This document shows positions 1,063 through 18,737 of a stretch of 25,750 nt of DNA, in pieces. Origin of the DNA: a virus; the IMG/VR virus record IMGVR_UViG_3300044295_000254, positions 1 to 25,750 of that record. One strand, given 5' to 3'. Positions within the stretch are counted from its first letter, which is position 1. Every line of letters begins with the position of its first letter. The position numbers and the translations under genes were made by a program. The notes under the pieces were generated by a model. That model did no database searches. It was not told where the DNA came from and saw nothing but the letters and a program-made list of their open reading frames with translations.

Positions 1063-1230
1063 CTATTTTGTTAGAAGAAACTCAGCCCGTGGCCTGGTGA
1101 CTCCCAATCTGGTCATCAAGATCTTTATAGACAAGGAATTAAGGGCTTCCGTATTGCCTTTAGAACGACTTAGGAGACTTTGGGGAGTTTCCTTGGGATG
1201 GTTGAGTAGGGTTACTGGTCTAGTCTTCAT
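1063..1230 (-). CDS. Small hypothetical protein, 55 aa, coupled to the Mu F-like gene
   Basis: The ATG at 1230 overlaps the TGA of the upstream Mu F-like gene (ATGA) and is preceded by GAGGGG with a five-base spacer. This is a strong ribosome site and the typical layout of translational coupling. The product begins MKTRPVTLLNHPKETPQSLL and ends with RLGVTRPRAEFLLTK. It is basic, with no membrane segment and no motif I recognise; the C-terminal third could form a short helix-turn-helix. It fills an otherwise empty 228-base gap between two head genes. The start context is the main argument that it is real. It is short enough that chance cannot be excluded. Confidence 0.5.
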   Translation of the reverse strand: MKTRPVTLLNHPKETPQSLLSRSKGNTEALNSLSIKILMTRLGVTRPRAEFLLTK

Positions 1231-6897: not shown

Positions 6898-6913
6898 CCT
6901 CACTCCTTTGAGG
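6898..6913 (-). promoter_or_regulatory. Ribosome-site hairpin of the WGR-like gene
   Basis: CCTCA-[AAGGAG]-TGAGG: a 5-bp stem presenting the ribosome site in a 6-base loop of the A-N-GGA-N type. It is one of seven such leaders in the window. Confidence 0.7.
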
Positions 6914-6935
6914 TTTTTGTGTTGCTTACATCTTT

Positions 6936-6964
6936 AGTATCGCACTATGGCAGGAGTTTGTCAA
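6936..6964 (-). promoter_or_regulatory. Sigma70-type promoter of the WGR operon
   Basis: TTGACA at 6959-6964, 17-bp spacer, GATACT at 6936-6941, then AAAGATGTAA as at the sister promoters. A dispersed palindrome lies 7 bp upstream of the -35 box. Confidence 0.85.
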
Positions 6965-6971
6965 GAGAAAT

Positions 6972-6985
6972 TGCACTCAATTGCA
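6972..6985. repeat. Dispersed palindrome, site 4 (one change)
   Basis: TGCACTCAATTGCA, one mismatch to TGCAA-N4-TTGCA, 7 bp upstream of the -35 box of the WGR operon promoter. Confidence 0.8.
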
Positions 6986-6988
6986 ATT

Positions 6989-7267
6989 TTAGTCTTGTCC
7001 AGTCATCTGAAGGTACACAGGAGACGAGCAGTGGGTGGCTAGCGTTCCGTACCCCTTACGGTAGGTGGCTTTGTTGAAGGCCACGGCTGCCTTCATAGAC
7101 TTGATCTCGATGGTGGGGGCGGTCTTGTGGTCGTACACCATGTTCCCACCTAGCTTGGGGACATCATCAGCACAGTCTTCACATTGGTTAATGAAGCCCG
7201 GTTTTCCTGGACGGTACTCAAATTCCGTCCTGCAATCTCGACAAACGATCATCGTTGGTTTCGGCAT
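6989..7267 (-). CDS. Zinc-ribbon-like small protein, 92 aa
   Basis: Residues 9-32 contain two CxxC knuckles (CRDC at 9-12 and CEDC at 29-32) separated by a basic linker ending PGKPGFINQ, a typical treble-clef or ribbon zinc site. The remaining 60 residues are beta/alpha with no known motif. The ATG at 7267 lies four bases after GGAG, and the start codon itself falls within the 3' arm of the leader hairpin. It is the last gene of the 7.9-7.0 kb group. Its function is unknown; nucleic-acid or protein binding is the usual role of such ribbons. Confidence 0.7.
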   Translation of the reverse strand: MPKPTMIVCRDCRTEFEYRPGKPGFINQCEDCADDVPKLGGNMVYDHKTAPTIEIKSMKAAVAFNKATYRKGYGTLATHCSSPVYLQMTGQD

Positions 7268-7283
7268 CTCACTCCTTTGAAAT
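7266..7283 (-). promoter_or_regulatory. Ribosome-site hairpin overlapping a start codon
   Basis: ATTTCA-[AAGGAG]-TGAGAT: a 6-bp stem with one G-U pair. The AUG of the zinc-ribbon gene begins within the 3' arm, so folding or protein binding would hide both ribosome site and start. Confidence 0.65.
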
Positions 7284-7513
7284 CACATCTCAACCACATC
7301 TTCGGGGGCGTGATTAAGAACCTTCCAGTAAGGCTTTTCACCACCCCCAGGAACCATCAAAAAGTGCAACTCATCGTAATCAGGCAGTCTGATGGAGGAC
7401 TGAGCCTTAAAGAGCACACCATACTGCGACTTTAGAACATACGCCGCCCCATCCTTGATACCGATGGCAATGTAGCTGGCGTGGAGATACTGTAACCGGG
7501 GCACGCCACGCAT
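7283..7513 (-). CDS. Hypothetical protein, 76 aa
   Basis: I place the start at the ATG at 7513 rather than an earlier ATG inside the upstream gene. It lies one base after the upstream stop (TAG, T, ATG) with GAGGGG about nine bases before it. The product is mainly beta: an opening strand LQYLHASYIAIGIKDGAAYV, then LKSQYGVLFKAQ. A C-terminal part follows with LPDYDELHFLMVPGGG. No family is recognised. Small barrel-like proteins of this composition are common in phage early operons. It is followed after a short gap by the zinc-ribbon gene. Confidence 0.65.
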   Translation of the reverse strand: MRGVPRLQYLHASYIAIGIKDGAAYVLKSQYGVLFKAQSSIRLPDYDELHFLMVPGGGEKPYWKVLNHAPEDVVEM

Positions 7514-7514
7514 A

Positions 7515-7892
7515 CTACTTGTACCCCTCTTCCTTACACCAGGCAAGCATGCGGCCAACATCATCACCCTCGAACTTAATCAAGGCTTCCCCCTGCTTAA
7601 AGCAGAGAGTGAGGGGGCTTTCCAGAATCTTCACTACAACCCCACCAATGGTGGTACGGTGAACCCCAGGAATCGTAATCTCCTTAGCAGGAGCAGCAGG
7701 GGCTGGAGGCTCTGGGGCCTCAACCACAACTTCAAGAGGTACAGGCTTGATGCAAGCAAAACCGGGAATCAAAGACTCAGCCTTCTTATCAATGGTGAAG
7801 GTGGCACCACAGGTGTACCCTACACGACTGTCTTGGATATAGGAACGAACTCTGCCGCAAGCAGGACACCCTTCTGGAATCACAAATGACAT
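7515..7892 (-). CDS. Hypothetical protein with N-terminal zinc knuckle, 125 aa
   Basis: The first 30 residues contain CPACGR (9-14) and a later Cys at 28 in GYTCGATF, a probable zinc-binding knuckle. A long Ala/Pro linker (EAPEPPAPAAPA) joins it to a C-terminal beta domain of about 55 residues, VHRTTIGGVVVKILESPLTL and onwards. The linker suggests two independently folded parts. It is the first gene after a strong promoter (7921-7949) and its ribosome site, AAAGGAG, lies in a short hairpin loop. Function unknown. Confidence 0.65.
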   Translation of the reverse strand: MSFVIPEGCPACGRVRSYIQDSRVGYTCGATFTIDKKAESLIPGFACIKPVPLEVVVEAPEPPAPAAPAKEITIPGVHRTTIGGVVVKILESPLTLCFKQGEALIKFEGDDVGRMLAWCKEEGYK

Positions 7893-7895
7893 CTC

Positions 7896-7907
7896 ACACT
7901 CCTTTGT
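7896..7907 (-). promoter_or_regulatory. Ribosome-site hairpin, short stem
   Basis: ACA-[AAGGAG]-TGT: only a 3-bp stem, the weakest of the seven. Its third pair is A-U where the others have U-A, a compensating change that keeps the pairing. Confidence 0.45.
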
Positions 7908-7920
7908 TTTTTACAGTCTT

Positions 7921-7949
7921 AGTATGTACCAAAATGGTACGTTTGTCAA
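7921..7949 (-). promoter_or_regulatory. Sigma70-type promoter with operator-like palindrome in the spacer
   Basis: TTGACA at 7944-7949, 17-bp spacer, CATACT at 7921-7926. The spacer and last -10 base hold the perfect inverted repeat GTACCAAAATGGTAC (7926-7940), placed where a repressor would block RNA polymerase. A dispersed palindrome lies 8 bp upstream of the -35. Confidence 0.85.
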
Positions 7950-7957
7950 GAGAAAAG

Positions 7958-7971
7958 TGCAATCAATTGCA
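7958..7971. repeat. Dispersed palindrome, site 5
   Basis: TGCAATCAATTGCA, perfect TGCAA-N4-TTGCA, between the polymerase stop and the promoter of the next operon, 8 bp from the -35 box. Confidence 0.9.
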
Positions 7972-7973
7972 GC

Positions 7974-10900
7974 CTACACTTCTTTCATATCGGCCATGTT
8001 CGGACCCAACTTAGCGTCAGCCGGGAAGTTCAACTGAGGCGTCCAGCCCACCTTCTCAAAAGGCAGGTTCTCCATGACTTGCGTATGCTGCTTTGCAATG
8101 TCCAAAGCATTATCTTCCGGCACGTAGTTATAGGCGGCATCATGAACAGCACCAAAAGCAGGGGCTATAGAGGTAAGGCCCATCCGGTGCTCAATCGACA
8201 ACGCCCACAGCAGCATGTCTGACAAGCATCCCTGGATCGGAGAGTTGATGGCTCGACGCTCTTCCTTGGCCGCAATCTCACGTTGGGGGGAGTCGATCAT
8301 AGGCAAGTGCCGAACGCGCCCAAGGGGACTACGAACGTACTTGTACTGCCGTGCAAACTCTTTGTAGATTCGATGGTACTCCAGCAAGATCGGGTAGGAC
8401 CGGAAGAACGCTTCTCTAGCCTCTCTAGCTAGATCCAAGGTCAAATTCTTAACCTTGTAGTTCGCAATGGCGTAGTCTAAGAACCCCTCAGCCCCCATGC
8501 CATACAGCAGACCGAAGTTCATGGCCTTTGCTAGCTGACGGTACTCAGCGAACCGTTCCTTATCAGCCAGCTTCAACTCCATCATCTGCTCATAGGTTAG
8601 GCCAGCACGACCACCCCCAGTCAGAGCATGAAGATCCATGCCATTCTTATAGGCTTGGATCATGTTGGTTTCATTGGCTACACAGGCAACTACCCGCAAC
8701 TCTCCTTGGGAGTAGTCGCGTTCCATCACCAGATAACCGGGGGGAGCAGGGAAACATCTACGAATCCTCTTTGCCCATTTCGTGTGTTTTGGGATGGTGT
8801 TATGAACAACAATACCGTTAGCCACAAAAGAATGGCTGTCTTCGATGGTGAGATCGAATGTCTCACGTTCTCCGTCGTACTCTATGCTGGCAATCTCTTC
8901 TAAACCGTAGCCTGCTGCTTGGGCTTGACTGGCGTGGTAAGGGCTGCTGTCAGGCTCCACCCCCTCTTCAATCGAATCGCCAAGGTGTTTGGATGAAGGC
9001 CATGCTCCTTCGCCACATCGTTTAAGTGCCGAGAAACGCCCCCAATATCTATCCAGATCGAGTTGCGGCGGTTTCTCGCTTGCTCCTGCGCCGTGGCCCA
9101 CCTGCAATTGGTTGCAGCGTAATCCCCATTCACGTCCAACCTCTCCAAAGACAAGCCGGGAGGTTTCTCCCCCATATCTTTTAGAAAATTCTTGAAGGAT
9201 TCTCTCCAAGAAGAACAGACGCCAATCCCCCTCCCCCCATAGTTGGCGTACTCCTTGTCCTTGGGATCGTAACAGCGTGCAATCATGTGCTGCCAGCACC
9301 AGTAGGTCTTGGATACGTGCCCTCTGCGGCTGTGACCATGCGTAGTGAGCAGCTGACTCCTGTAGCAGCCACAAGACATGCTCGGATTCTTCCCAGTGAG
9401 ATTCGCTGCGAACTTCTCCTTCACCGTGCCGCACTCGCATAGGCAAAGGTACTTGCGATGCCCTTTGTTCACTGTCCCCAAATCCTGAAACACCTCCCAA
9501 CGCCCGATCTTGCTGCCTACCACCACTATCTGCTTCTGCATATACCGGAACCCCTACTTTCAAATGCTCTTGTCGAACGAATCCCCAAGGGGTAAGCCAT
9601 GGGTGGTTAGTAGTACAAATAAGGCTCTTACCAGAACGGGTGGTTACTTTCCAAGTTGGACGCACCCCATTACGATATACGCCTGTGACAGGCTTAACCT
9701 CTCCGGTGTGTGTAGGCACATTAAACTTCTCCCCGGCCTCAAACCTCTCCACCAAGTCACGCAACTCCAGTGTAGCATCTTGGGTACAGATTGAACTAGC
9801 GCCGTCTAAACACTGGAACGCCGGATCTACGCAACTCAATCTTCCGGTATTCGTGCCGCCTTCCCCAGCATCCCTGTTGCCAGCAAACAGGTAGTAGGTT
9901 GGGTGGAACCGACTATCCGGCCTGAGATGCTCAAGGAACCCAACCACGTAGGTCGAGTACGTCTTTACTACGCTCTGGTACTCCTTGAAAATACTAATGA
10001 ACTCAGTAGCCTCAGGGACATCAGAAAACATTACTACGTGCTCCAAGGCAGTTGATGGTTTCTTATTACCGTCTTTGTCTTCCTTGGCCGTCCACATCTT
10101 AGGCTTCAAGTTCAAGCCCATCTGGCTAAACAGGAAGTCACTTAAGAGCGCGGCCTTAGTCAGGTTGATGCCGCCCTTCTTTGTGGAATCGTAATGCTTA
10201 GCTACTATACGCCCACCGATGATTCTGGAGGCTTCCTTAACAAGCCGTAACTGCTCAGCCTCAAGGTCGGACTTCAACTCTTGGTAAGCGTTTCCATCAA
10301 CCAGAATTCCACCCTGCTCCAATTCCTCAAATGCCCGTGCAGCAGGGTGCATGATGTTAACGTAAAACCCAGCAAGCTGCGGGTCTTGTAGGATCTCAGC
10401 ACGCTGGTTCATGGCTACTTCTAACCCAGCATCAACGTCCCCAGCAGCGTAAGGAAGCAGGGTGGCAGGAGGCACCAAATCCATGCGACTCTTATCTACG
10501 GTGCGATCAAACTCATCCGAATAACCACCCATACGAGGGGCGTAAATCTTGGCGTGTACGTCTAGGCTATTGGACCTGTTCTCATCTAAAAGCGACCCTA
10601 CTATGGTGGTGTCAAAGACAAAATTCCGACACTTCTTCTTGGCTCTTACGTGCATCCAGTGAAGGTCGTACTTGAAGTTTGCGCCCTTCATCTTGATCTT
10701 TGGTGAGCCTAGCAGGTAGTCAAGTTGGTCTGAGATCTCAGGAGACTTCAGCCTCTCTATTTCTTCTTCACGGTTAGAGAAGCGAACAACATCAGCCACC
10801 CCAATCCTATGTGTGGCTTGCATAGTCACGATATAGGCCCCCGGAAACTTTCCTTCGGGTAGGGCGTAGGGGTTGAGTCCCAAAGTCTCCGTGTCCATCA

Positions 10901-11366
10901 TTACATCCACAGGGGACTGGGTTTCTTCGTACTGTTTTTCGATGGCAGCGCACAGTTCTGAGAAATCTGGAGTGTACCGATACACCCCATACTGTGGCTT
11001 CATGTGCCCTGTCAGAAAAAACCGGGACACCAAACTGAAGTCAGTCAGCAAGTCAATGTAATACCCGTGGTTGATATCCCCAACGTCTGCGCTGTAACTG
11101 AACATGAGGGGCACAGTACCGACAAAAACGGGCACTGCTCGAAGGGAGGTAACGGTTCTGTTCTTTGCTACGAAGCCTAGTTGCTGGGCGTGCTGTAGGG
11201 CTTTAGAGCCTAAAGCGAAAACAATCTTGGCCTCAGGGAGAACCTCAAAAGCAGATGACACCTCTATCTGCAAACCCTGAGAGGACTTCAGGATGGGAGA
11301 CAGGGCGTCAAATACTTTGTTCTTTTTGGTGTCGGTCCAAATCTGTATCAAGAAATCTTGCTCCAC
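7974..11366 (-). CDS. polA: DNA polymerase I (family A) with 3'-5' exonuclease, interrupted by an intein
   Basis: This is the phage replicative polymerase. The precursor is 1130 residues; after removal of the intein (519-856) the enzyme would be 792 residues. The exonuclease motifs are intact: D158-T-E160, N230-FKY-D234 and Y306-AAG-D310. The polymerase motifs are motif A DYSQGELR (884-891, usual Ile replaced by Gly) and motif B R943-K947-F951-Y955. Motif C is VHDAA (1074-1078), where the usual HDE glutamate is Ala. There is no 5' nuclease domain. The first 130 residues, with ALGSKALQHA and a later VPLMFSYSA, faintly resemble a uracil-DNA-glycosylase-like fold without its motifs. The start is a GTG at 11366 overlapping the upstream gene by 19 bases. 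The intein sits at GRLSCVDPAFQ before TIPKHTK, within a conserved nucleotide-binding region. Confidence 0.93.
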   Translation of the reverse strand: MEQDFLIQIWTDTKKNKVFDALSPILKSSQGLQIEVSSAFEVLPEAKIVFALGSKALQHAQQLGFVAKNRTVTSLRAVPVFVGTVPLMFSYSADVGDINHGYYIDLLTDFSLVSRFFLTGHMKPQYGVYRYTPDFSELCAAIEKQYEETQSPVDVMMDTETLGLNPYALPEGKFPGAYIVTMQATHRIGVADVVRFSNREEEIERLKSPEISDQLDYLLGSPKIKMKGANFKYDLHWMHVRAKKKCRNFVFDTTIVGSLLDENRSNSLDVHAKIYAPRMGGYSDEFDRTVDKSRMDLVPPATLLPYAAGDVDAGLEVAMNQRAEILQDPQLAGFYVNIMHPAARAFEELEQGGILVDGNAYQELKSDLEAEQLRLVKEASRIIGGRIVAKHYDSTKKGGINLTKAALLSDFLFSQMGLNLKPKMWTAKEDKDGNKKPSTALEHVVMFSDVPEATEFISIFKEYQSVVKTYSTYVVGFLEHLRPDSRFHPTYYLFAGNRDAGEGGTNTGRLSCVDPAFQCLDGASSICTQDATLELRDLVERFEAGEKFNVPTHTGEVKPVTGVYRNGVRPTWKVTTRSGKSLICTTNHPWLTPWGFVRQEHLKVGVPVYAEADSGGRQQDRALGGVSGFGDSEQRASQVPLPMRVRHGEGEVRSESHWEESEHVLWLLQESAAHYAWSQPQRARIQDLLVLAAHDCTLLRSQGQGVRQLWGEGDWRLFFLERILQEFSKRYGGETSRLVFGEVGREWGLRCNQLQVGHGAGASEKPPQLDLDRYWGRFSALKRCGEGAWPSSKHLGDSIEEGVEPDSSPYHASQAQAAGYGLEEIASIEYDGERETFDLTIEDSHSFVANGIVVHNTIPKHTKWAKRIRRCFPAPPGYLVMERDYSQGELRVVACVANETNMIQAYKNGMDLHALTGGGRAGLTYEQMMELKLADKERFAEYRQLAKAMNFGLLYGMGAEGFLDYAIANYKVKNLTLDLAREAREAFFRSYPILLEYHRIYKEFARQYKYVRSPLGRVRHLPMIDSPQREIAAKEERRAINSPIQGCLSDMLLWALSIEHRMGLTSIAPAFGAVHDAAYNYVPEDNALDIAKQHTQVMENLPFEKVGWTPQLNFPADAKLGPNMADMKEV
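8900..9541 (-). CDS. HNH homing endonuclease nested out of frame inside the intein
   Basis: A complete 213-residue free-standing phage HNH endonuclease. Residues 6-65 form a Cys-rich domain (IGRWEVFQDLG, CLCECG at 33-38, SCGC at 56-59). The nuclease core has ARCYDPKDKEYANYGGRGIG (88-107), W112, SLERLD (131-136) and DYAATNCRWAT (140-150). The C-terminus (VSRHLNDVAKEHGLHPNTLA then LKRGWSLTAALTTP) is a NUMOD-like helix-turn-helix. It has its own ATG at 9541 with AGGGG nine bases upstream. Relative to the polymerase/intein frame it is in +1, so both frames are open for 642 bases. It presumably spreads the intein, or itself, by cutting intein-free polymerase genes; that role is inferred from the family. 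Confidence 0.9.
   Translation of the reverse strand: MQKQIVVVGSKIGRWEVFQDLGTVNKGHRKYLCLCECGTVKEKFAANLTGKNPSMSCGCYRSQLLTTHGHSRRGHVSKTYWCWQHMIARCYDPKDKEYANYGGRGIGVCSSWRESFKNFLKDMGEKPPGLSLERLDVNGDYAATNCRWATAQEQARNRRNSIWIDIGGVSRHLNDVAKEHGLHPNTLAIRLKRGWSLTAALTTPVKPKQQATV
9103..9116. repeat. Dispersed palindrome, site 6
   Basis: TGCAATTGGTTGCA, perfect TGCAA-N4-TTGCA, inside the HNH gene and the intein at once. Confidence 0.8.
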
Positions 11367-11722
11367 TTGTTCTTCTGAGAAGTGTACTCGAAGATGGCTT
11401 TCACTTTTGTCTGCACCTCCGCAAAAGCAAAGTCTTTGCAGTTTTCCACGGTGATACCAACCTCTTGGGCATTAAAGAAGGCCAGCTTGGTGGAGTTGTA
11501 GGACAGATCGAGATAGCCCCACAAGCTATCTGTAAAAGACACCCACATGCAAACACGGTTCTCCTTCACCACGGCTGAACGGGTCTGCAAGAAGATGGGC
11601 AAGTCAAAGGGGCCAAACTGGAAGGTCTTTCTCCCGCTTCCCCACAAAATCTCTTTCTTATCATCCCCACCATGCAGGATAGGGATGCCTAAGGTGTCAG
11701 CAACCAAACAGTCAGCAGCCAT
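11348..11722 (-). CDS. Hypothetical protein upstream of DNA polymerase, 124 aa
   Basis: ATG at 11722 has AAGGAG upstream and begins one base after the stop of the preceding gene. The 3' end overlaps the GTG start of the polymerase by 19 bases, so the two are probably co-translated. The product is mixed alpha/beta with aromatic-rich strands (FQFGPFDLPIFLQTRSAVV, VCMWVSFTDSLWGYLDLSY) and a helical C-terminus ending TSQKNKWSKIS. No motif is known to me. Position suggests a replication accessory protein, which is inference only. Confidence 0.68.
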   Translation of the reverse strand: MAADCLVADTLGIPILHGGDDKKEILWGSGRKTFQFGPFDLPIFLQTRSAVVKENRVCMWVSFTDSLWGYLDLSYNSTKLAFFNAQEVGITVENCKDFAFAEVQTKVKAIFEYTSQKNKWSKIS

Positions 11723-11723
11723 T

Positions 11724-12008
11724 CTAGCTCTCCTTCGGGGGGAGGATCATCAGCTTGATGCCTCCACTAGGACCAACATCCAACTTAAGCTTGTAAACAG
11801 GAATACCGCAGAACAACCCCTCGAACACCCAGCCTGTCATGATATTCGATGACTTGGTACTTTGACGGCAAATCCAAGACACGTCCTCTGGTATTCCAGG
11901 CATCAGGGGCATCTTTAGAATCGAGTTGACCCCCACGTTACTCAACAACCGTTTAAGGCTGTCACACTTCTCACTCCCGTTCTCCAGGAAACCACCAACC
12001 ATCGACAT
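11724..12008 (-). CDS. Hypothetical protein, 94 aa
   Basis: The ATG at 12008 overlaps the stop of the upstream L7/L12-like gene (TGATG), with GGGGGTGA close upstream; a second ATG lies two codons later. The protein has an N-terminal helix (EKCDSLKRLLSNVGVNSILK), a Pro/Met-rich loop and a beta C-terminal half that includes GWVFEGLFCGIPVYKLKLDV. It contains three Cys residues but no recognisable metal motif. It lies third from the polymerase in the operon beginning at the promoter near 13.04 kb. Function unknown. Confidence 0.65.
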   Translation of the reverse strand: MSMVGGFLENGSEKCDSLKRLLSNVGVNSILKMPLMPGIPEDVSWICRQSTKSSNIMTGWVFEGLFCGIPVYKLKLDVGPSGGIKLMILPPKES

Positions 12009-12991
12009 CAGTTCACCCCCACTAGCTGCTTAGCACTCGTCACTTGATCGGAGAACTCCATCCCAAGACCCATCAAAAAGGCCCCAACAACACGAGCAGG
12101 AGGTACGCCATTCAAAGCTAGGTGCAAGCTAGCGTATTTCTCAGTCACCTTCATACCGTTGGAAGCCAAGAGGGATACCTCAGAAGGAATCTTCTTCTTC
12201 CACTCAGCACGCAGAGAGACTTCGTGCCCACTAAACCGGGCTGCAATCTTGAGATTGCTGTTATAGGCGATGCAGTAATAAACGCTCCCGGCGCTCGTAC
12301 CACTCACCTTTTGCCCCAATGCCAAAGCATCGACCAACTTAACCACCGAGTTTACAGGCTTAGTGGCGACAGGCTCAGAAAAGGAACCCTGCTTAGACTG
12401 CGTTATTGCAAGAGCCTCAACCACCAACCCGTCCTGCTCACAGAAGAGCACAAACTTACCCTTCGTCTCCACCATGGCCTTCGTAAGAACAGCCGAAGCT
12501 TCTTTATAGGACAACCCCGTTTGGTAAACAAAAGGCTTCCCGTTAGAAGCCGCGTCAACTATGTCTTTGGCTTCTTTCAAAGAGATGCCAAGCTGCATAC
12601 GCAAGAACTTGATGATGGGGATTTTCACCGCTCCATCAGCAGGAACGTCCATCAGCTTGATGGAGTACGTCTTCTCTTTGACGGGCGGGACTTCCTCTTT
12701 CTTGTCTAAGCCCACCTGCTTGCCCAAGACGGTAAGCCAGTCACCGACCTCTTTACCAACTAGGGCGTAGTCTTCTGGGGTAGCGGCAGACTTCAAGATG
12801 TTGGTCGGAGAAACTTTTAGGGCCACTTTCTCTGTGATGCCCTTGTAGGTGAACTCGACGCTAAAAAGCGTCAGGGAAAACACACCCCCCACATCATTGA
12901 GATCTTGGGCCAGCTTGTAGTACGGAGATTCAACCCCGAACAACTTCTGGAAGAAAACCAACTGAACATTTTTTGCCATGTAAAGTGCCAT
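12008..12991 (-). CDS. Hypothetical protein with ribosomal L7/L12 C-terminal-like domain, 327 aa
   Basis: Residues about 107-187 match the pattern of the ribosomal L7/L12 C-terminal domain: YSIKLMDVPADGAVKIPIIK, then FLRMQLGISLKEAKDIVDAA with the hallmark LKEAKD at 138-143. A later helix LSYKEASAVLTKAMVETKG and the closing strand KFVLF complete it. In ribosomes this domain docks translation factors. Flanking regions of about 100 and 140 residues are unrecognised; the N-terminal one is beta-rich and the C-terminal one mixed. There is no ribosomal dimerisation domain, so this is a phage protein that has taken up the fold. It is the first gene of the polymerase operon, with promoter 13031-13059 and a ribosome-site hairpin at 12999-13016. 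The ATG at 12991 is the first start after it. Confidence 0.72.
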   Translation of the reverse strand: MALYMAKNVQLVFFQKLFGVESPYYKLAQDLNDVGGVFSLTLFSVEFTYKGITEKVALKVSPTNILKSAATPEDYALVGKEVGDWLTVLGKQVGLDKKEEVPPVKEKTYSIKLMDVPADGAVKIPIIKFLRMQLGISLKEAKDIVDAASNGKPFVYQTGLSYKEASAVLTKAMVETKGKFVLFCEQDGLVVEALAITQSKQGSFSEPVATKPVNSVVKLVDALALGQKVSGTSAGSVYYCIAYNSNLKIAARFSGHEVSLRAEWKKKIPSEVSLLASNGMKVTEKYASLHLALNGVPPARVVGAFLMGLGMEFSDQVTSAKQLVGVN

Positions 12992-12998
12992 TTTCGAT

Positions 12999-13016
12999 TT
13001 CTCACTCCATTGAGAA
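12999..13016 (-). promoter_or_regulatory. Ribosome-site hairpin of the L7/L12-like gene
   Basis: TTCTCA-[ATGGAG]-TGAGAA: a perfect 6-bp stem with the A-N-GGA-G loop. The distance from GGAG to the ATG is 13 bases, longer than at the sister genes. Confidence 0.75.
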
Positions 13017-13030
13017 TTGCTTACACTTTT

Positions 13031-13059
13031 AGTGTCTCACAAAGGGAGTGTTTTGTCAA
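13031..13059 (-). promoter_or_regulatory. Sigma70-type promoter of the polymerase operon
   Basis: TTGACA at 13054-13059, 17-bp spacer, GACACT at 13031-13036. The -10 and start region read ACACTAAAAGTGT, an inverted repeat that could be an operator. Confidence 0.88.
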
Positions 13060-13067
13060 CAAAAAAA

Positions 13068-13814: not shown

Positions 13815-14869
13815 TAGGCTTTCACTCTTTCATAAACTTGAACCGTCTGTCCGGGGAACACATCCCAGGTTCCGGCAGGAATAACCTTCTTGCCGTTGAT
13901 CTGTGTGACCATCGCAGCCTTCTTCTCAGGGCTTGCAGCAGCAACCTTGTGCTTATTCTGAGCCTCTTTGAATTGCGGGTACTTGTGAACAGACCCCAAA
14001 GCTTCAACTTTGTACCAATCCACGTACCCCGTAAACTCCTCTGGCATGTGTTCCCTAGCCATTTTCACGAGGTTAACAACGTTATTGGGCTTAGACAACC
14101 CTCCGTAAGACTCTGAATCCAGCAGCATATCGGGTATCTGCCCACTCCGCTGAATGTCAAGAAGCGTAATCAGGTTATGGGTGTAGCCGCTATACATCAT
14201 CCCTTTGTTGAAGATGGGGCCTCCATTGTGAGCCAGCGTGTAACTGGTATCAATCATGGCTTCCATGGAGGTCTTTCCGTGTACGAAAGCATCACAGGCG
14301 TCTGTCACGATGCCCCACTTCTTTCCACCGTAAGCACTGTTCCAAGAACCTTGGTGGAAGGCATAGGACAACCCGCTGGTGTACTTCCCAACACTACACT
14401 TTGGAGAACTCGACATGTAAGCACTAACGGCTTGCGTCTCGTTCATCTTCAAGATGTTCTTTAAAAACTCTGTGAACTCTGGCCCAAACTTACTCTCAAC
14501 CGTCTGCCAGAAACCAGCCTTACAAGTGGTCCCCTTCAGGTGACGCATCTCCCTGGTCGTAATCGACATGAGGTAGTGGAACGCTCTCAACCCCTGGCTG
14601 TTCAGCACATCACGATAGAACTCCATGATATTGAACGCCCACCCAGGAAGAGCCTCACTGGGAGTGAATCTGTTGCGAACCAGGGCTGCAAGGTGGTTGG
14701 CTGCATAGAAGATCACAGCCTCTTCATCAGCAACCACTTGCCCACAATTAACCCGGTAATGCTTGGTAGCAACACCAAAATGTTCAACAGGGATAGCACT
14801 GATGTCCACTTTTTGCAACTGTGGCAACATCGAATGATGCTTTAACGTGTAACTCGGAAGATATTTCAT
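13814..14869 (-). CDS. Hypothetical protein between two phosphatase genes, 351 aa
   Basis: I do not recognise this family. It is a soluble mixed protein with conserved-looking blocks: HYRVNCGQVVADEEAVIFYA near 37-56, GGKKWGIVTDACDAFVHGKT at about 181-200, and LAHNGGPIFNKGMMYSG at about 212-228. Several His, Asp and Asn residues cluster in the middle, as in an enzyme. The C-terminal 60 residues (EAQNKHKVAAASPEKKAAMV, then a short beta tail) look like a linker plus small domain. It starts at 14869 with GGAG seven bases upstream in a leader hairpin, has its own promoter, and overlaps the following phosphatase gene. Shared context with the two phosphatases suggests a common substrate or pathway. 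Confidence 0.72.
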   Translation of the reverse strand: MKYLPSYTLKHHSMLPQLQKVDISAIPVEHFGVATKHYRVNCGQVVADEEAVIFYAANHLAALVRNRFTPSEALPGWAFNIMEFYRDVLNSQGLRAFHYLMSITTREMRHLKGTTCKAGFWQTVESKFGPEFTEFLKNILKMNETQAVSAYMSSSPKCSVGKYTSGLSYAFHQGSWNSAYGGKKWGIVTDACDAFVHGKTSMEAMIDTSYTLAHNGGPIFNKGMMYSGYTHNLITLLDIQRSGQIPDMLLDSESYGGLSKPNNVVNLVKMAREHMPEEFTGYVDWYKVEALGSVHKYPQFKEAQNKHKVAAASPEKKAAMVTQINGKKVIPAGTWDVFPGQTVQVYERVKA

Positions 14870-14870
14870 T

Positions 14871-14888
14871 CCCTCACTCCATTGAGAA
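14871..14888 (-). promoter_or_regulatory. Ribosome-site hairpin of the 351-aa gene
   Basis: TTCTCA-[ATGGAG]-TGAGGG: four Watson-Crick pairs next to the loop plus two G-U pairs. Confidence 0.65.
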
Positions 14889-14901
14889 TCAGTACATCTT
14901 T

Positions 14902-14930
14902 AGTGTACTGCTAACGAGTCAGTTTGTCAA
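14902..14930 (-). promoter_or_regulatory. Sigma70-type promoter of the 351-aa/phosphatase 1 operon
   Basis: TTGACA at 14925-14930, 17-bp spacer, TACACT at 14902-14907. GTACACTAAAGATGTAC around the -10 is an imperfect inverted repeat. The promoter overlaps the 3' end of the preceding phosphatase gene. Confidence 0.88.
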
Positions 14931-15426
14931 GAGGAGGGTACCGGGTAATTCGCCCTTTCTTGAAGAAAAACCGGAACTTTGCCGCAAGAATCAGCACTCG
15001 AACGTGGGGAGTAACTGCGAAGGACGAAACGAAAGCGTACTGCTCTTCCGTCTCAACCGCATGACGGTAGTAGTTCTTACGAACATACTCCACAGGGTTC
15101 TTCACTCCGAACGCTTTGGCAAGCACAGCGAGGAACAGTCCGGTGCGTCCACGACCGCCCCAGCACCCCACGTACAGCGGCTCTCCAGCACAGATCTGTG
15201 CCACTGCCTTAATCAACCCGTTCCGAAGAACTTTGACATCAGGGACTTGAAAATCTCTGGTGGGAATGTCAACTTCACACGGAAGGTTGATCTCCTCTGC
15301 CATCTTCACTCCCTTGATGTATGCTGGCTTTTCTCGATACGGTCCACCGTAAACGGTGACGTGGTTCTTGGAGGTAACGGGCAGGTCCAAAGACCCAAGA
15401 CCGATAAGACCTTTGTTCAGTTTCAT
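14911..15426 (-). CDS. PTP-loop phosphatase-like protein 2, 171 aa
   Basis: The loop LYVGCWGGRGRTGLFLAV (nucleophile C88, R94 counted from the ATG at 15426) is the C-x5-R signature of Cys-based phosphatases. EYVRKNYYRHAVETEEQYAF is shared with phosphatase 1, so the two are paralogues; this one lacks the long tail. VDIPTRDFQVPDV may supply the general-acid Asp. I choose the ATG at 15426 over an in-frame GTG at 15435 because the GTG overlaps the GGAG ribosome site. The last 40 residues are basic and aromatic (ILAAKFRFFFKKGR). It has its own promoter at 15460-15488. Substrate unknown. Confidence 0.85.
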   Translation of the reverse strand: MKLNKGLIGLGSLDLPVTSKNHVTVYGGPYREKPAYIKGVKMAEEINLPCEVDIPTRDFQVPDVKVLRNGLIKAVAQICAGEPLYVGCWGGRGRTGLFLAVLAKAFGVKNPVEYVRKNYYRHAVETEEQYAFVSSFAVTPHVRVLILAAKFRFFFKKGRITRYPPLDKLTR

Positions 15427-15428
15427 TT

Positions 15429-15446
15429 CTTTCACTCCGTTGAAAA
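15429..15446 (-). promoter_or_regulatory. Ribosome-site hairpin of phosphatase 2
   Basis: TTTTCA-[ACGGAG]-TGAAAG: five pairs plus a G-U. The fourth pair is U-A where most sisters have C-G, a compensating change. Confidence 0.7.
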
Positions 15447-15459
15447 TTACTACAGCTTT

Positions 15460-15488
15460 AAGATAGCACTAAACGAAAAGTTTGTCAA
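15460..15488 (-). promoter_or_regulatory. Sigma70-type promoter of phosphatase 2
   Basis: TTGACA at 15483-15488, 17-bp spacer, TATCTT at 15460-15465. The TGA stop of the small upstream gene lies within the -35 box. A dispersed palindrome is 9 bp further upstream. Confidence 0.82.
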
Positions 15489-15637
15489 TGGTGTTGCTGC
15501 AATTGAGTGCAAAACTGCATCAATTTAGCCGACTCATCAACGAAACCCTTCCACACTCCCATGCCGAACGCAAGGAACATCACAGCAGACACAACGAACC
15601 CTAGCAGCAGTCCGCTCATGAACGCTAAACTCTTCAC
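15485..15637 (-). CDS. Small single-span membrane protein, 50 aa
   Basis: A short frame starts at GTG 15637 (or ATG 15619, giving 44 residues) just after the stop of the preceding gene. The product opens with KSLAFMSGLLLGFVVSAVMF and then LAFGMGVW: one strong hydrophobic segment of about 22 residues with positive charge before it. A polar tail of about 20 residues follows, ending CTQLQQHH. Its last codons are built from a dispersed palindrome and its stop is shared with the -35 box of the next promoter. No strong ribosome site is visible, so expression would depend on coupling to the upstream gene. The membrane pattern is the main evidence. Confidence 0.5.
   Translation of the reverse strand: MKSLAFMSGLLLGFVVSAVMFLAFGMGVWKGFVDESAKLMQFCTQLQQHH
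15498..15511. repeat. Dispersed palindrome, site 8 (one change)
   Basis: TGCAATTGAGTGCA, one mismatch to TGCAA-N4-TTGCA. It is 9 bp upstream of the -35 box of the phosphatase 2 promoter, within the 3' end of the small membrane protein gene. Confidence 0.8.
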
Positions 15638-15638
15638 C

Positions 15639-16061
15639 CTACCATTGTAGCCCAGGATTGTTGGATCTCAGATGGTCCATCGTCTCTTTTAGCAGGGTAG
15701 AGGACACGACATAACTATTGGCCTGGAACATCGAAACGAGCATAGCCCCCAAAAGAGAAGGGCCTTGCTTGGTAATCTCCTCGAACACCCTCTTTCCCAT
15801 CTCATCCTTGTGGTCAGCCATGTACTTAGTGACGACATCACGTATCTGAGAGGTTAGAGCAGTTCTAACTGCCTCTTCAAACCAAGAGTAGCTGGGATTG
15901 TTGTAGTACCCGCCTTTAGTAAAAAAGACCTTCTCAATGGCTCTCTTAACTAGCTCTGCCAACGCCTCTTCAGGAATCAACTCACCGATGTCGGCTCTGA
16001 TCTTCTCTTCTAACTTCTTTTCAAATGCTTGTTGGGGGGTTAGGGAGGTATTCGACTCCAT
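15639..16061 (-). CDS. Hypothetical helical protein, 140 aa
   Basis: ATG at 16061 with GAGG upstream. The protein is almost entirely helical and charged, opening with LTPQQAFEKKLEEKIRADIG. An aromatic patch follows (GGYYNNPSYSWFEEAVRTAL), then ITKQGPSLLGAMLVSMFQAN, which is amphipathic rather than membrane-spanning. No motif is known to me. It lies about 50 bases from the zinc-knuckle gene before it and one base from the small membrane gene after it. It probably belongs to the operon led by the dikinase-like gene. Confidence 0.65.
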   Translation of the reverse strand: MESNTSLTPQQAFEKKLEEKIRADIGELIPEEALAELVKRAIEKVFFTKGGYYNNPSYSWFEEAVRTALTSQIRDVVTKYMADHKDEMGKRVFEEITKQGPSLLGAMLVSMFQANSYVVSSTLLKETMDHLRSNNPGLQW

Positions 16062-16108
16062 TCTTCGCCTCGTTATAGCTCGTTTGTACTTCTTGTTTTT
16101 TGACTTGT

Positions 16109-16441
16109 CTATCTTCGCAGCAGCAAAGGCTCATGTTTAGGGAGGGGCTTATCTTTCACCCACCTCTTCACTTGACCTATCCAACCGCAAGCTTTACATC
16201 CAGCACCATCACAGGCATCGTGGTCCTCAAACATAACAGTATCCCCCTTGCCCGTCTCCAGGTGTTTCTCATGCTGCATGTCTACCAGCACGTCACCGCT
16301 CACCTTGAACAGCCAATGGAAGTACCGTCTGTTGAAACCACGAACACTAGTGATGGCCGCTGAGTCCAACATCAGACACAACTCTTCCTCTGCGATCTTC
16401 TCAGTGGCGAGAATAGCCAATACCCTCTTGCTTAACTGCAC
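16109..16441 (-). CDS. Hypothetical protein with Cys knuckle, 110 aa
   Basis: GTG start at 16441 with a strong GGAGGAG upstream. Residues 74-85 (HDACDGAGCKAC; C77, C82, C85 plus H74) resemble a DnaJ-like or ribbon-type zinc knuckle, followed by GWIGQVKRWVKDKPLP. The N-terminal 60 residues include a helix (RVLAILATEKIAEEELCLML) and an aromatic beta segment (NRRYFHWLFKV). Function unknown; a small metal-binding regulator or adaptor fits. It follows the CsrA-like gene closely, so the two are likely on one transcript. Confidence 0.65.
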   Translation of the reverse strand: MQLSKRVLAILATEKIAEEELCLMLDSAAITSVRGFNRRYFHWLFKVSGDVLVDMQHEKHLETGKGDTVMFEDHDACDGAGCKACGWIGQVKRWVKDKPLPKHEPLLLRR

Positions 16442-16453
16442 ACCGTCTCCTCC

Positions 16454-16702
16454 TTACTTGCGAGTGATGGGAATACTTCTCGGAGCATCAAACGCTAACC
16501 TACTACCCGTCCCGGTAGAGCCTACGCCTAAAGACACGTAAACTTCATCCAAGATCTTCTCTCTTTTCTGTTCAGTCACTAGCACAGGAGAGCCGCCGTC
16601 CACGCTAATCTCGATGATGTCAGCAGACACCGAGAGCACTTTTACTGCGTGCTCCCCAACATGAATCAAACTGCCTACCTTAATCCCTAATGACAACGCC
16701 AT
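16454..16702 (-). CDS. CsrA/RsmA-like RNA-binding protein, 82 aa
   Basis: The C-terminus RLAFDAPRSIPITRK matches the beta4-beta5 RNA-binding edge of CsrA (pattern R-L-G-[IFV]-x-A-P-x-x-[VI]-x-[VI]-x-R), and R81 corresponds to the key CsrA Arg44. The N-terminal part, KVGSLIHVGEHAVKVLSV, matches the beta2-beta3 segment VGE-x-x-x-IGD-x-V-x-V-x-V-L. Between them lie about 40 extra residues, so the protein is 82 residues rather than the usual ~60. The first strand with the LTRR motif is not evident. CsrA binds GGA in hairpin loops and represses or stabilises mRNAs. The ATG overlaps the stop of the dikinase-like gene (TAATG). Seven leaders in this window have matching loops. The assignment rests on motif matching, not a search. 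Confidence 0.55.
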   Translation of the reverse strand: MALSLGIKVGSLIHVGEHAVKVLSVSADIIEISVDGGSPVLVTEQKREKILDEVYVSLGVGSTGTGSRLAFDAPRSIPITRK

Positions 16703-18675
16703 TATTTTGTCCCACTCTCTGCCGTGTGAAGCAAGCTCTCAACAGACACCATGGAAGTGAGTTCCGGCACAAAAGCGCCTACGGAGAGGAACTTAACACC
16801 CTCATCCATCTTCCACTTCATCACCTTCTTAACAGCGGCGTCAGGCTTAGCCGAAACTACCACCCCATCCTTAGCCAAGATCAGAGACTTCAAATCATCT
16901 GCTGTCCCCAAAGTCTTGAACTTGCTGCTAGTAACACCCACTAAAACAAGATTCTTCAGAACAGGATACTTCGGCAGGAGGGCGGCCAACTCGTCCATGA
17001 CTTTATACTGTGGATTAAAGGTAGCACAAATCGAGAAGAATGGCACCTCTGGCTCAGCAATCGACAAATCCACGTACAGCGTGCCACTACACTTCCCGAC
17101 AGTCTTCAGGATCATGTCTGCTGCCATTTCAGGCTCAAGGATCTTGTTTCCAAGCACAAGCAGTGCAGAGTCGTGGTTACGCTTCGGAACACCGTACAGC
17201 ACCGGGATGGCCCCAAGGGACTTAAACAGCATCTCGGAGTACACAGCCAGGATTTCGGAGTTTCCGTTAGCGGAGATCGGCACTTCCTCCAACCAGATAT
17301 TGCCAGTGGAGCCGTCAAAACTCACCTTATCACAGCCCTCGAAAACGGTAAGGCTTGCCCCCACCCCTGTAACGCAAGGAATGTTCTCCCCTCTTGCAAC
17401 CACAGCAGCATGGGAAGTCAAACCGCCTTCCATAGTGATTACCCCCTTCGCTGCAAGCATGCCAGCGTAGTCTTCAGGGGTCGTCTCCTTGGTAATGAGG
17501 ATACAGGGTTCTTTGCAAGCAATTGCAGCCTTGGCAGAGAACACAGGCTTGCCAGTAACAACACCGGAGCAAGCGGCAATTCCCTTTAAATTGGGAGCCT
17601 TCTTGAAACCGGAAGCGAGAGTGGGAAGCTGCGCCAGATCATACTGACGAGCAGTCACTCTCAGCAAGATCTTAGCCTTTTCGGCATCGGTCGGTGCTGC
17701 CTTAGCCATATCGACAGCGATACGCACAGCAGCTTGAGCACTGCGCTTTGCGTTACGGGTCTGGAGAATGTACAGCTTGCCATCCTGTACAGTGAACTCG
17801 ATGTCTTGAACATCCTTCTTGCGATGCTCCAAGTCGTAGGCCACCAAACAAAGGTTGGCATACACCGTAGCATTCCACTTTTCCATGTCTTGAAGGTTGA
17901 GCGGAGTGCGGATACCAGCAACCACGTCCTCGCCTTGGGCGTTCACCAGGAACTCACCCTTGATGTGCTGTTCTCCAGTGTCTGGATTGCGGGTGAACAA
18001 AACCCCGGTAGCAGACTGATCGTTCAGATTGCCAAACACCATGGACTGTACCGTAACAGCGGTCCCCCATTCACGAGGGATGTCATGCTGCTTGCGGTAC
18101 ACCTTAGCACGTTCATTGTCCCAGGACTTAAACACCGCCTCGATAGCCCCAAGGACCTGGCCCGAAGCATTGGGAAACTTCTCTCCAGTCTCGGAGACGT
18201 AGTAAGCCAAGGCATCAACCGAAAAACCCTTCTCTAGCTGATGACGGTCAAGACCCATGACAACAGAGCCGTACATGGTGATAAGGCGATGATAGCTGTC
18301 CTCAAAGCACTTGGCCCCCAGCTTGCTCTTCCAGAAGTCTTTGTTCTCTTCGTCAATTCCGACGTTCAGAATCGTGTCCATCATACCGGGGCAGGAAACA
18401 CGAGCGCCAGAACGAACAGAAACCAGGGGCATGTACCCGAAGTGCTTAATCAACTGCTCACAGTAGTTGCCCAGGGAATTCTTGATCGTCTGCATCGTGT
18501 ACCCAGGCATACTGTCATAGGCTTCCCACACGCCCGTAGGAATCACGAAGCCGGGGGGAACAGGAATGTTGGCCTTGTCCATCCAAACAAGACCTGCGCC
18601 CTTGCCACCGAGAATTTCAACGCCCGGAGCATCCTTCATTTTTTCCGAGAACCCGAAAGGGTAGAACTGGTACAT
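16702..18675 (-). CDS. Pyruvate phosphate dikinase-like enzyme with non-standard C-terminus
   Basis: Residues 1-320 (counting the GTG at 18678 as 1) are the ATP-grasp part of the PPDK/PEP synthase family: ILGGKGAGL (22-30), PVPPGFVIPTG, SVRSGARVSCPGMMDTILNV (87-106), FPNASGQ (168-174), SATGVLFTRNPDTGE and LYILQTRNAKR. Residues 365-470 are the swivelling phosphohistidine domain with EGGLTSHAAVVARGENIPCV and active-site H423. Standard PPDK (about 875 residues) then has a ~350-residue TIM barrel that binds pyruvate/PEP. Here only about 185 residues follow, and they show none of its motifs. The acceptor of the phosphate may therefore be something else. I prefer the ATG at 18675, six bases after GGAGTG, giving 657 residues. 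Promoter and leader hairpin lie directly upstream. Confidence 0.88.
   Translation of the reverse strand: MYQFYPFGFSEKMKDAPGVEILGGKGAGLVWMDKANIPVPPGFVIPTGVWEAYDSMPGYTMQTIKNSLGNYCEQLIKHFGYMPLVSVRSGARVSCPGMMDTILNVGIDEENKDFWKSKLGAKCFEDSYHRLITMYGSVVMGLDRHQLEKGFSVDALAYYVSETGEKFPNASGQVLGAIEAVFKSWDNERAKVYRKQHDIPREWGTAVTVQSMVFGNLNDQSATGVLFTRNPDTGEQHIKGEFLVNAQGEDVVAGIRTPLNLQDMEKWNATVYANLCLVAYDLEHRKKDVQDIEFTVQDGKLYILQTRNAKRSAQAAVRIAVDMAKAAPTDAEKAKILLRVTARQYDLAQLPTLASGFKKAPNLKGIAACSGVVTGKPVFSAKAAIACKEPCILITKETTPEDYAGMLAAKGVITMEGGLTSHAAVVARGENIPCVTGVGASLTVFEGCDKVSFDGSTGNIWLEEVPISANGNSEILAVYSEMLFKSLGAIPVLYGVPKRNHDSALLVLGNKILEPEMAADMILKTVGKCSGTLYVDLSIAEPEVPFFSICATFNPQYKVMDELAALLPKYPVLKNLVLVGVTSSKFKTLGTADDLKSLILAKDGVVVSAKPDAAVKKVMKWKMDEGVKFLSVGAFVPELTSMVSVESLLHTAESGTK
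17514..17527. repeat. Dispersed palindrome, site 9
   Basis: TGCAAGCAATTGCA, perfect in the ten fixed positions of TGCAA-N4-TTGCA, within the dikinase-like gene at the codons for the AAIAC segment. Confidence 0.8.
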
Positions 18676-18677
18676 CA

Positions 18678-18691
18678 CTCACTCCTTTGAG
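18678..18691 (-). promoter_or_regulatory. Ribosome-site hairpin of the dikinase-like gene
   Basis: CTCA-[AAGGAG]-TGAG: a 4-bp stem with the A-N-GGA-G loop. The leader also precedes the CsrA-like gene on the same transcript, so feedback control is possible. Confidence 0.6.
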
Positions 18692-18708: not shown

Positions 18709-18737
18709 AGTGTCACACAGTACGAGCAGTTTGTCAA
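18709..18737 (-). promoter_or_regulatory. Sigma70-type promoter of the dikinase/CsrA-like operon
   Basis: TTGACA at 18732-18737, 17-bp spacer, GACACT at 18709-18714, then AAAGATGTAA. It overlaps the 3' end of the LuxR-type gene. Confidence 0.88.

Follow-up and report, generated by a model that had tools for sequence, protein, structure and literature searches.

A CsrA-related protein and A-N-GGA-G leaders in a phage family: a likely translational regulon of the phage's own genes

CsrA genes carried by phages have been recognized for years without a demonstrated role, and the published proposals considered here face outward, towards host targets and CRISPR-Cas. The family described here points inward, in that a phage may direct a CsrA-type protein at its own transcripts. 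The window, the whole stretch of 25,750 nt that was analysed (positions 1 to 25,750 of IMG/VR virus record IMGVR_UViG_3300044295_000254), has its genes on the minus strand. The first-pass annotation, made from the sequence alone, had claimed seven leaders with the ribosome site in an A-N-GGA-G loop, compensating changes in the stems, variation at the second loop base only and a promoter directly ahead of six of the seven leader-bearing genes. All seven leaders were present, as follows.

6898..6913, minus strand: leader CCTCA-AAGGAG-TGAGG, before a 78-aa WGR-domain gene (covariance model E=2.4e-6)
7266..7283, minus strand: leader ATTTCA-AAGGAG-TGAGAT, before a 92-aa gene (covariance model E=1.1e-4)
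7896..7907, minus strand: leader ACA-AAGGAG-TGT, before a 125-aa gene (covariance model E=9.7e-6)
12999..13016, minus strand: leader TTCTCA-ATGGAG-TGAGAA, before a 327-aa gene (covariance model E=8.3e-7)
14871..14888, minus strand: leader TTCTCA-ATGGAG-TGAGGG, before a 351-aa gene, phrog_20946 (covariance model E=5.1e-6)
15429..15446, minus strand: leader TTTTCA-ACGGAG-TGAAAG, before a 171-aa phosphatase gene (covariance model E=8.7e-7)
18678..18691, minus strand: leader CTCA-AAGGAG-TGAG, before the PPDK gene (covariance model E=9.7e-7)

The claim about the loop held, the second base (A, T or C) being its sole variable position across the seven leaders. The claim of compensating stem changes held as well: four stem pairs changed on both sides, which was matched by 4 of 500 shuffles, and the total stem length gave an exact permutation P of 0.0052, although the permutation tests carry no correction for kinship among the leaders. 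Two of the seven stems are short, with 3 and 4 pairs. The covariance model of the seven leaders, which had been named as a check, was run on the window and recovered those seven at E < 2e-4, the next match having E = 0.026. The core CAANGGAGTG occurs 8 times in the window, always on the minus strand, against 0.32 copies expected, and none of 100 shuffles reached 8; the eighth copy lies at 15307-15316, within the phosphatase gene. The likely start of the PPDK gene is the ATG at 18675 and that of the phosphatase gene is an ATG 16 nt past the C of the leader core, while the 3' arm of the 7266..7283 hairpin extends into the ATG of the 92-aa gene. The 327-aa gene encodes an L7/L12 C-terminal-like domain and heads the DNA polymerase operon, and the PPDK operon behind the 18678..18691 leader includes the CsrA-like gene.

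The claim about promoters also held. A promoter with TTGACA and a 17 nt spacer was found upstream of six of the seven leaders, the sole exception being the leader at 7266, which has none ahead of it.

18709..18737, minus strand: sigma70-type promoter TTGACA-17-GACACT, before the PPDK leader
15460..15488, minus strand: promoter TTGACA-17-TATCTT (TTGACA-17 pattern)
14902..14930, minus strand: promoter TTGACA-17-TACACT (TTGACA-17 pattern)
13031..13059, minus strand: promoter TTGACA-17-GACACT (TTGACA-17 pattern)
7921..7949, minus strand: promoter TTGACA-17-CATACT (TTGACA-17 pattern)
6936..6964, minus strand: promoter TTGACA-17-GATACT (TTGACA-17 pattern)

The leaders start near the inferred transcript start. 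Within the window the promoters resemble one another, as do the leaders.

The putative regulator is encoded in the PPDK operon, and its ATG start shares bases with the stop of the PPDK gene ahead of it (TAATG).

16454..16702, minus strand: ORF of the 82-aa CsrA-like protein (Pfam CsrA E=2.6e-4; PHROG; hhalign; AlphaFold)
16702..18675, minus strand: PPDK/PEP-utilising-like gene (Pfam PPDK_N 4e-44), a marker of the conserved module

The last 22 residues of the protein match positions 24-45 of Pfam CsrA (PF02599) with E = 2.6e-4, at a score of 21.3 bits that is below the curated gathering cut-off of 27, and PHROG CsrA-like regulators match it over residues 1-46 and 60-81. Two CsrA-like halves were delimited, an N-terminal one at about 1-46 and a C-terminal one at about 36-82, in which Arg81 corresponds to CsrA Arg44. 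In hhalign comparisons with CsrA, the N half gave P = 3e-5 (score 25.3) and the C half P = 1.3e-4 (score 23.6), against scores of at most 14 for 40 column-shuffled controls; the fold and Pfam results are independent of the CsrA sequences used in these comparisons. The protein belongs to a phage family without annotation, from which 21 members of 82-113 aa were aligned. Pfam CsrA was matched by 8 of the 21 (E up to 0.1, best 4.9e-7) and was the only family matched by more than one member, and the only matches of the family profile in the PDB were two CsrA chains, both weak.

AlphaFold predicted a confident nine-strand fold for the window protein (pLDDT 90). Foldseek with this model placed no CsrA among its top matches, and VIA-align gave no clear CsrA match for it (RsmN Z 3.7, CsrA Z 3.1). 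The model of a second family member (L027; pLDDT 93) returned RsmF at Foldseek rank 1 (prob 1.00, E 0.034), and VIA-align superposed it on RsmN (Z 5.2, 1.9 A over 51 residues) and on RsmE (Z 4.4, 53/53 residues, 2.0 A, model residues 38-91), Z values that are middling (4-5). The model of this relative rested on a deeper alignment and gave better matches than the window model. The CsrA beta-strand fold of the PF02599 family is present at the level of a predicted model, as is, from the alignment, an RNA-binding Arg44 in beta5 beside the beta1 hydrophobics: at the position equivalent to Arg44, 20 of 21 C halves have Arg while 20 of 21 N halves have Asp or Glu, and the Leu4 position holds Leu or Ile in all 21 members. 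Retention of Arg44 in the C half with an acidic residue in the N half suggests that the protein is a fused pseudo-dimer, roughly a double CsrA, probably with one RNA site; we regard this as likely, RNA binding and the single site per chain being inferred. The first-pass annotation had described a CsrA-like edge with the RNA-binding Arg, which held at Arg81 with RNA binding itself inferred, and had named the predicted fold as a check, which came out in favour as CsrA/Rsm-like. Its description of the protein as a CsrA homologue held only in part: sequence and predicted fold show that the 82-aa protein is related to CsrA, yet is not an ordinary CsrA.

Relatives found via another gene, phrog_20946, had the CsrA-like gene at the same place wherever the stretch reached that far. 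Family members adjoin the same PPDK/phosphatase/DNA-polymerase module, which is conserved in Stenotrophomonas, Rhizobium, Rhodobacter and Vibrio phages. Only one metagenome-assembled genome matched when bacterial genome contigs were searched for the neighbouring gene. The single match of the first viral scan (L001) was a chance 15-residue match and was dropped.

Further sites with a non-random distribution, another of the proposed checks, were found across the family. In the complete genome of Stenotrophomonas phage DLP3, 15 of 15 CAANGGAGTG sites lay on the coding strand 14-17 nt before annotated starts. The opposite strand had no site, nor did the first 29 kb, where the virion genes lie; for this absence from virion genes P is about 0.03, from a rough count only. 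Other DLP3 genes have plain GGAG/AGGA sites without the element. Across 24 related loci the sites reached a density of 3.2 per 10 kb, compared with 0-1.0 for four controls. The stems covary across the family too: 161 of 262 pairs adjoining the core were complementary in register, where permutation gave 108.7 (z = 7.8), whereas shifted registers gave z of about -1 to -0.5, and several pair types occur within a single phage (T-A, C-G and G-C in L010; A-T, C-G and T-A in L025). The alignment of all clades was too diverse for a pattern search. The hairpin is not universal in the family, since four relatives (L002, of DLP3's genus, L012, L028 and L035) retain the sequence with the stem absent. One relative (L029) has TAAGGAGTG instead, and the leaders of Vibrio phage J26 have no such element despite a CsrA-annotated gene at the same place. 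ANGGA in a hexaloop over the ribosome site, the mark of a CsrA/RsmA-family target, is present at the level of sequence, with the stem absent in some relatives. The element contains a Shine-Dalgarno sequence, so some conservation of it is expected anyway.

The core changes with the protein, CAANGGAGTG/CAAGGAGTG accompanying one protein clade and CANGGAGG, which fits the CsrA/RsmE target pattern, the other (79:13 vs 6:40); host taxonomy is confounded with this match. The first-pass annotation had left the choice between the phage's own CsrA homologue and that of the host. The phage's own protein is the better candidate, given that site cores track protein clades, with RNA binding, direction and timing inferred.

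The best reading, and a likely one, is translational repression of the phage's own non-virion operons, a RegA-like role with CsrA-like chemistry. The data show a protein family related to CsrA, a leader element placed before starts, stems that covary and sites that change with the protein; the steps that follow are inferred, without binding or expression data. The fused double protein would have a single RNA-binding edge, in which the N-terminal strand 1 lies beside the C-terminal strand 9 with Arg81. Its target would be the A-N-GGA-G element of the short leaders at the 5' ends of the phage's non-virion transcription units, in most relatives within the six-base loop of a weak hairpin. Because the element is also the Shine-Dalgarno sequence, bound protein would exclude the 30S ribosome and repress translation. 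The circuit may be self-limiting, because the CsrA-like start overlaps the stop of a leader-bearing gene and five relatives (L005, L009, L031, L035 and L036) have a site directly before the CsrA-like gene: early and middle genes would be active until the protein accumulates and would then be silenced together, while virion genes, without the site, would continue.

Of the alternatives, the one that survives best, though it is unlikely, is a CsrA-type interaction that activates or stabilizes, with binding at the 5' end protecting short mRNAs or opening the hairpin. In its favour, CsrA stabilizes flhDC mRNA from 5'-end sites and activates ymdA (PMC7652899), and the leaders begin near the inferred transcript start. 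Against it, the stems are short, and the GGA in the loop is the ribosome site and would be hidden under bound protein.

It is very unlikely that the leaders are there for host CsrA/RsmA, which the phage would exploit or titrate, with the phage protein acting elsewhere (on host mRNAs or CRISPR-Cas) or modulating host CsrA. Host CsrA does recognize the same ANGGA loops, and phage-borne RsmA has been proposed to act on host targets (PMC8450108; PMC12038007). However, the two phage protein clades have different site cores, and the gene adjoins its putative targets in relatives, five of which have a site directly before the gene. Both gene and sites are also present in Rhizobium and Rhodobacter phages, and Sinorhizobium meliloti, a stand-in for the hosts themselves, is reported to lack a chromosomal csrA (PMC7366521).

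Also very unlikely is that the element is merely a strong ribosome-binding site with a favoured flanking sequence, multiplied as promoter-leader cassettes were duplicated, with covariation by descent. GGAG is present at the right spacing, and the promoters and leaders of the window are alike. However, a free base before GGAG with a fixed A preceding it is a CsrA and not a Shine-Dalgarno pattern, pairing occurs in register only and with several pair types within one phage, and other DLP3 genes use plain sites without the element. A GGAG-specific nuclease like T4 RegB, which cleaves GGAG in the translation initiation regions of early mRNAs (PMC3014915), or another RNA-binding protein reading the leaders, is the least likely alternative, since secondary structure shields RNA from RegB (PMC3014915) while the loops here sit in covarying stems, and no such nuclease was found among the window proteins scanned (a partial genome, with some small ORFs outside the scan). 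Reading the element as a DNA operator was rejected: compensatory changes, strict strand use, ribosome-site overlap and promoter-less copies (7266) point to RNA.

Repression by the phage's own protein can be compared with several known systems. The closest fold match is RsmN/RsmF of Pseudomonas aeruginosa (PDB 4kji, 4krw, 4k59; PMC3791407), likewise CsrA-derived, with a segment inserted between beta2 and beta3 and a conserved beta1/beta5 RNA edge with Arg; it binds ANGGA in hairpins and in unstructured RNA (PMC3791407). In RsmN two short chains dimerize and the insert is an alpha helix, whereas the extra segment of the phage protein is a second CsrA-like half made of strands. The leaders and the Arg44-type edge resemble CsrA/RsmA/RsmE on the hcnA ribosome-site hairpin (PDB 2jpp), with an ANGGAN hexaloop over the ribosome site, and RsmE superposes with all 53 residues on one half of the phage protein model. 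Canonical CsrA/RsmA/RsmE proteins are domain-swapped homodimers of about 60 aa with two RNA sites; the phage chain, in contrast, has 82-113 aa, two CsrA-like halves and apparently one site, and its leaders have one site each.

CsrA-type genes are also carried by other phages (PMC8450108; PMC7366521; PMC12038007), in Vibrio phage J26 (ORF99, PMC12038007) at the same place after PPDK. The reported phage RsmA homologues show high similarity to bacterial RsmA, and the roles suggested for them concern host functions such as CRISPR-Cas; the relevant sections of PMC8450108, PMC7366521 and PMC12038007 do not describe a regulon made up of phage genes. T4 RegA (PMC3014915), small and phage-encoded, represses by competing with the ribosome for many early and middle mRNAs, as is inferred for the phage protein. 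It has an unrelated fold, and its sites are A+U-rich and unstructured rather than GGA hairpins (PMC3014915); the RegA family was not among the Pfam/PHROG matches of the window proteins, which include a CsrA-like fold instead.

We lean, without much margin, towards a bolder reading, that these proteins form a new class of CsrA derivative, a single-chain pseudo-dimer in which one RNA edge is live, with a dedicated regulon of one-site leaders in the phage's own genome, and that protein and sites co-evolved into at least two recognition codes (CAANGGAGTG, CANGGAGG), some using a hairpin and others a linear site, also in hosts that possibly lack CsrA. The phage group carrying the doubled CsrA and matching sites seems widespread, and its set of sites would probably let a phage switch off genes jointly, regulation being inferred. 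This would be a post-transcriptional regulon of viral origin, with many sites in each genome, and would give a putative function to a gene now annotated as hypothetical. The fused one-site CsrA offers a means to study the importance of the two RNA sites in normal CsrA. The family also provides natural series of proteins with their sites, RNA structure having been traded for sequence, in phages that infect culturable hosts (Stenotrophomonas, Rhizobium and Rhodobacter).

It was found that the seven 5′ hairpin leaders described in the first-pass annotation, each with its ribosome site in an A-N-GGA-G loop (6898, 7266, 7896, 12999, 14871, 15429 and 18678), were all present as described and at correct coordinates in this virus record of 25,750 bases, whose main genes lie on the minus strand. 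The core CAANGGAGTG occurred in eight window copies, all on the minus strand, against 0.32 expected; seven were 12–21 nt upstream of a start codon (measured from the C of the core) and the remaining copy was intragenic. The summed stem length of the seven leaders exceeded that of permuted pairings (exact P 0.0052), the stem changed on both sides at four of six pairs, and a covariance model built on the leaders scored strongly in the window for those seven alone. The claim that six of the seven belong to promoter-first genes was supported, with a TTGACA-17-nt promoter before six and none in front of the leader at 7266. The leader was short, with a single ANGGAG in the promoter-to-start interval of each of the six promoter-bearing cases.

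Five or six window promoters also had CTAAAGATGTA in common around the inferred transcript start, just past the -10, a similarity exceeding the sigma70 requirement. Examples are:
18713-18701, minus strand, CTAAAGATGTA
14906-14894, minus strand, CTAAAGATGTA
6940-6928, minus strand, CTAAAGATGTA
The resembling ACACTAAAGACGA lies upstream of the portal gene at 5160, which is without a Csr-type site.

The seven-leader model gave 32 matches (E up to 5) in 12 related phages, 31 of them on the coding strand, and none in the four control phages of that search. The leader element occurred 144 times in 24 related loci, a density of 3.2 per 10 kb; the density in four control phages was 0–1.0 per 10 kb. 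Among 131 leaders of the related loci, Watson–Crick pairs at the two positions outside the core numbered 161/262 vs 108.7 by within-phage permutation (z 7.8), and registers shifted by 1–3 gave z of -0.5 to -1.0. Single positions showed several pair types, namely T-A, C-G and G-C in one related locus (L010) and A-T, C-G and T-A in another (L025). The complete genome of Stenotrophomonas phage DLP3 had 15 copies of CAANGGAGTG, all on the coding strand and 14–17 nt upstream of an annotated start, preceding genes that include an AAA ATPase, PPDK, phrog_20946 and the one that follows the second phosphatase; its first 29 kb, comprising virion genes, had none.

In Summit (L002) and three other loci (L012, L028 and L035) the core was kept with outside pairing almost absent, and in L029 the core was TAAGGAGTG. 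Since the affinity of RsmN for unstructured ANGGA RNA is only 2–3-fold below that for a hairpin (PMC3791407), a linear class of sites is plausible, though the hairpin then cannot count as a defining feature of the regulon.

The putative regulator and its surroundings in the window are:
16454-16702, minus strand, 82-residue CsrA-like protein, directly after the PPDK gene (16702-18675)
14871-14888, leader before the 351-residue phrog_20946 gene
The last 22 residues of the protein matched Pfam CsrA (E 2.6e-4, under the cut-off) and both ends matched PHROG CsrA-like regulators. It belongs to a phage family without annotation, with relatives in Stenotrophomonas phages DLP3, DLP5 and Summit, eight IMG/VR loci, Rhizobium RHph_Y1_11 and RHph_TM16, and Rhodobacter RcZahn. 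The module common to all was terL (where visible), PPDK, CsrA-like, tyrosine phosphatase, phrog_20946, the second phosphatase, a gene that is either L7/L12-like or hypothetical, and DNA polymerase A. Loci fetched by the phrog_20946 homologue alone had the CsrA-like gene upstream wherever the stretch reached that far.

Residues 1-46 aligned to CsrA 1-46 (P 3e-5, score 25.3) and residues 45-82 to CsrA 9-45 (P 1.3e-4, score 23.6), with column-shuffled controls scoring <=14. AlphaFold predicted nine strands for both the window protein (pLDDT 90.4) and the member from related locus L027 (pLDDT 93.3). The top Foldseek match of the L027 model was RsmF (prob 1.00, E 0.034); by VIA-align, RsmE placed 53/53 residues on 38-91 at 2.0 A and RsmN spanned 1-86. 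Fold-match Z values were modest (4–5) and the window protein's own model gave weaker structural matches, so the fold call was based on sequence, Foldseek and VIA-align jointly. The strand at 38-42 would be shared by the two halves, acting as beta5 in the first and as beta1 in the second. The Arg44 equivalent was Arg in 20/21 C halves and Asp/Glu in 20/21 N halves. Because the CsrA RNA site combines beta1 of one protomer with beta5 of the other (PMC7652899), we infer, without binding data, that the protein is probably a single-chain pseudo-dimer in which only one RNA edge works.

Core type tracked protein clade over both clades, CAANGGAGTG or CAAGGAGTG accompanying MALSIG...RLAFEAPR proteins in 79/92 and CANGGAGG accompanying LVLSL...IEAPR..RG proteins in 40/46, a match that host taxonomy may confound.

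In the favoured reading, the protein would occupy the ribosome site and repress translation of a set of non-virion operons. T4 RegA likewise represses translation at the ribosome site, but its fold is different. Of the rivals, activation or mRNA protection in place of repression remains possible. Use of the sites by host CsrA is less likely. That the sites are a mere ribosome-site cassette is unlikely, and a RegB-like nuclease acting there is very improbable. Under repression by the CsrA-like protein, negative feedback is predicted, an inference from the sites directly upstream of its gene in five related loci (L005, L009, L031, L035 and L036) and from the window, where its start overlaps the stop of the site-bearing PPDK.

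Phage csrA genes catalogued in 2020–2021 were reported to resemble bacterial RsmA closely, and the roles proposed for them concern the host and CRISPR (PMC7366521, PMC8450108). A 2025 paper on Vibrio phage J26 annotated CsrA at the equivalent position, again with a host-directed idea (PMC12038007), and in the DLP3 paper the homologue appears as a hypothetical protein, with no mention of CsrA or ribosome sites (PMC7326821). In the passages searched, all from open-access papers, neither a comparable phage regulon nor a fused CsrA was described. The J26 protein (L013:18066-18548) has 161 residues and follows PPDK; the leader element was not found in the leaders of that phage.

The 14 bp near-palindrome TGCAATYRATTGCA had 13 window copies with <=1 mismatch (0 in 100 shuffles), spaced by about 2 kb and lying in coding as well as non-coding DNA:
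1014, 2958, 5199, 6972, 7958, 9103, 13558, 15498, 17514, 19806, 22281, 24042 and 25301, copies of TGCAATYRATTGCA
The DLP3 genome had 24 copies, and the element was also present in related loci L018, L028, L007 and L009; the outer bases vary palindromically in L009 (GGCAATCAATTGCC) and L035 (TCCAATTGATTGGA). No paper containing the sequence was found in the literature searched. ParB-like genes occur in the family and DLP5 has a phagemid lifestyle (PMC5834331), so parS-like partition sites are one tentative guess.

Further features observed in the window were:
12008-12991, minus strand, 327-residue early-type protein with a ribosomal L7/L12 C-terminal-like domain (2.9e-6), first in the DNA polymerase operon
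7974-11366, minus strand, DNA polymerase ORF with an intein (Pfam Intein_splicing 1.2e-10)
8900-9541, minus strand, 213-residue ORF nested in the polymerase ORF in another frame of the same strand, HNH-type endonuclease-like by eye
1227-3329, minus strand, Mu F-like head protein, part of which resembles a 2H phosphoesterase and matches anti-CBASS Acb1 (1.5e-4, under the cut-off)
19071-23483 and 23493-25265, minus strand, two long proteins built from degenerate repeats of short length (TTTAVSRV.. and SHTTD..), likely virion surface proteins
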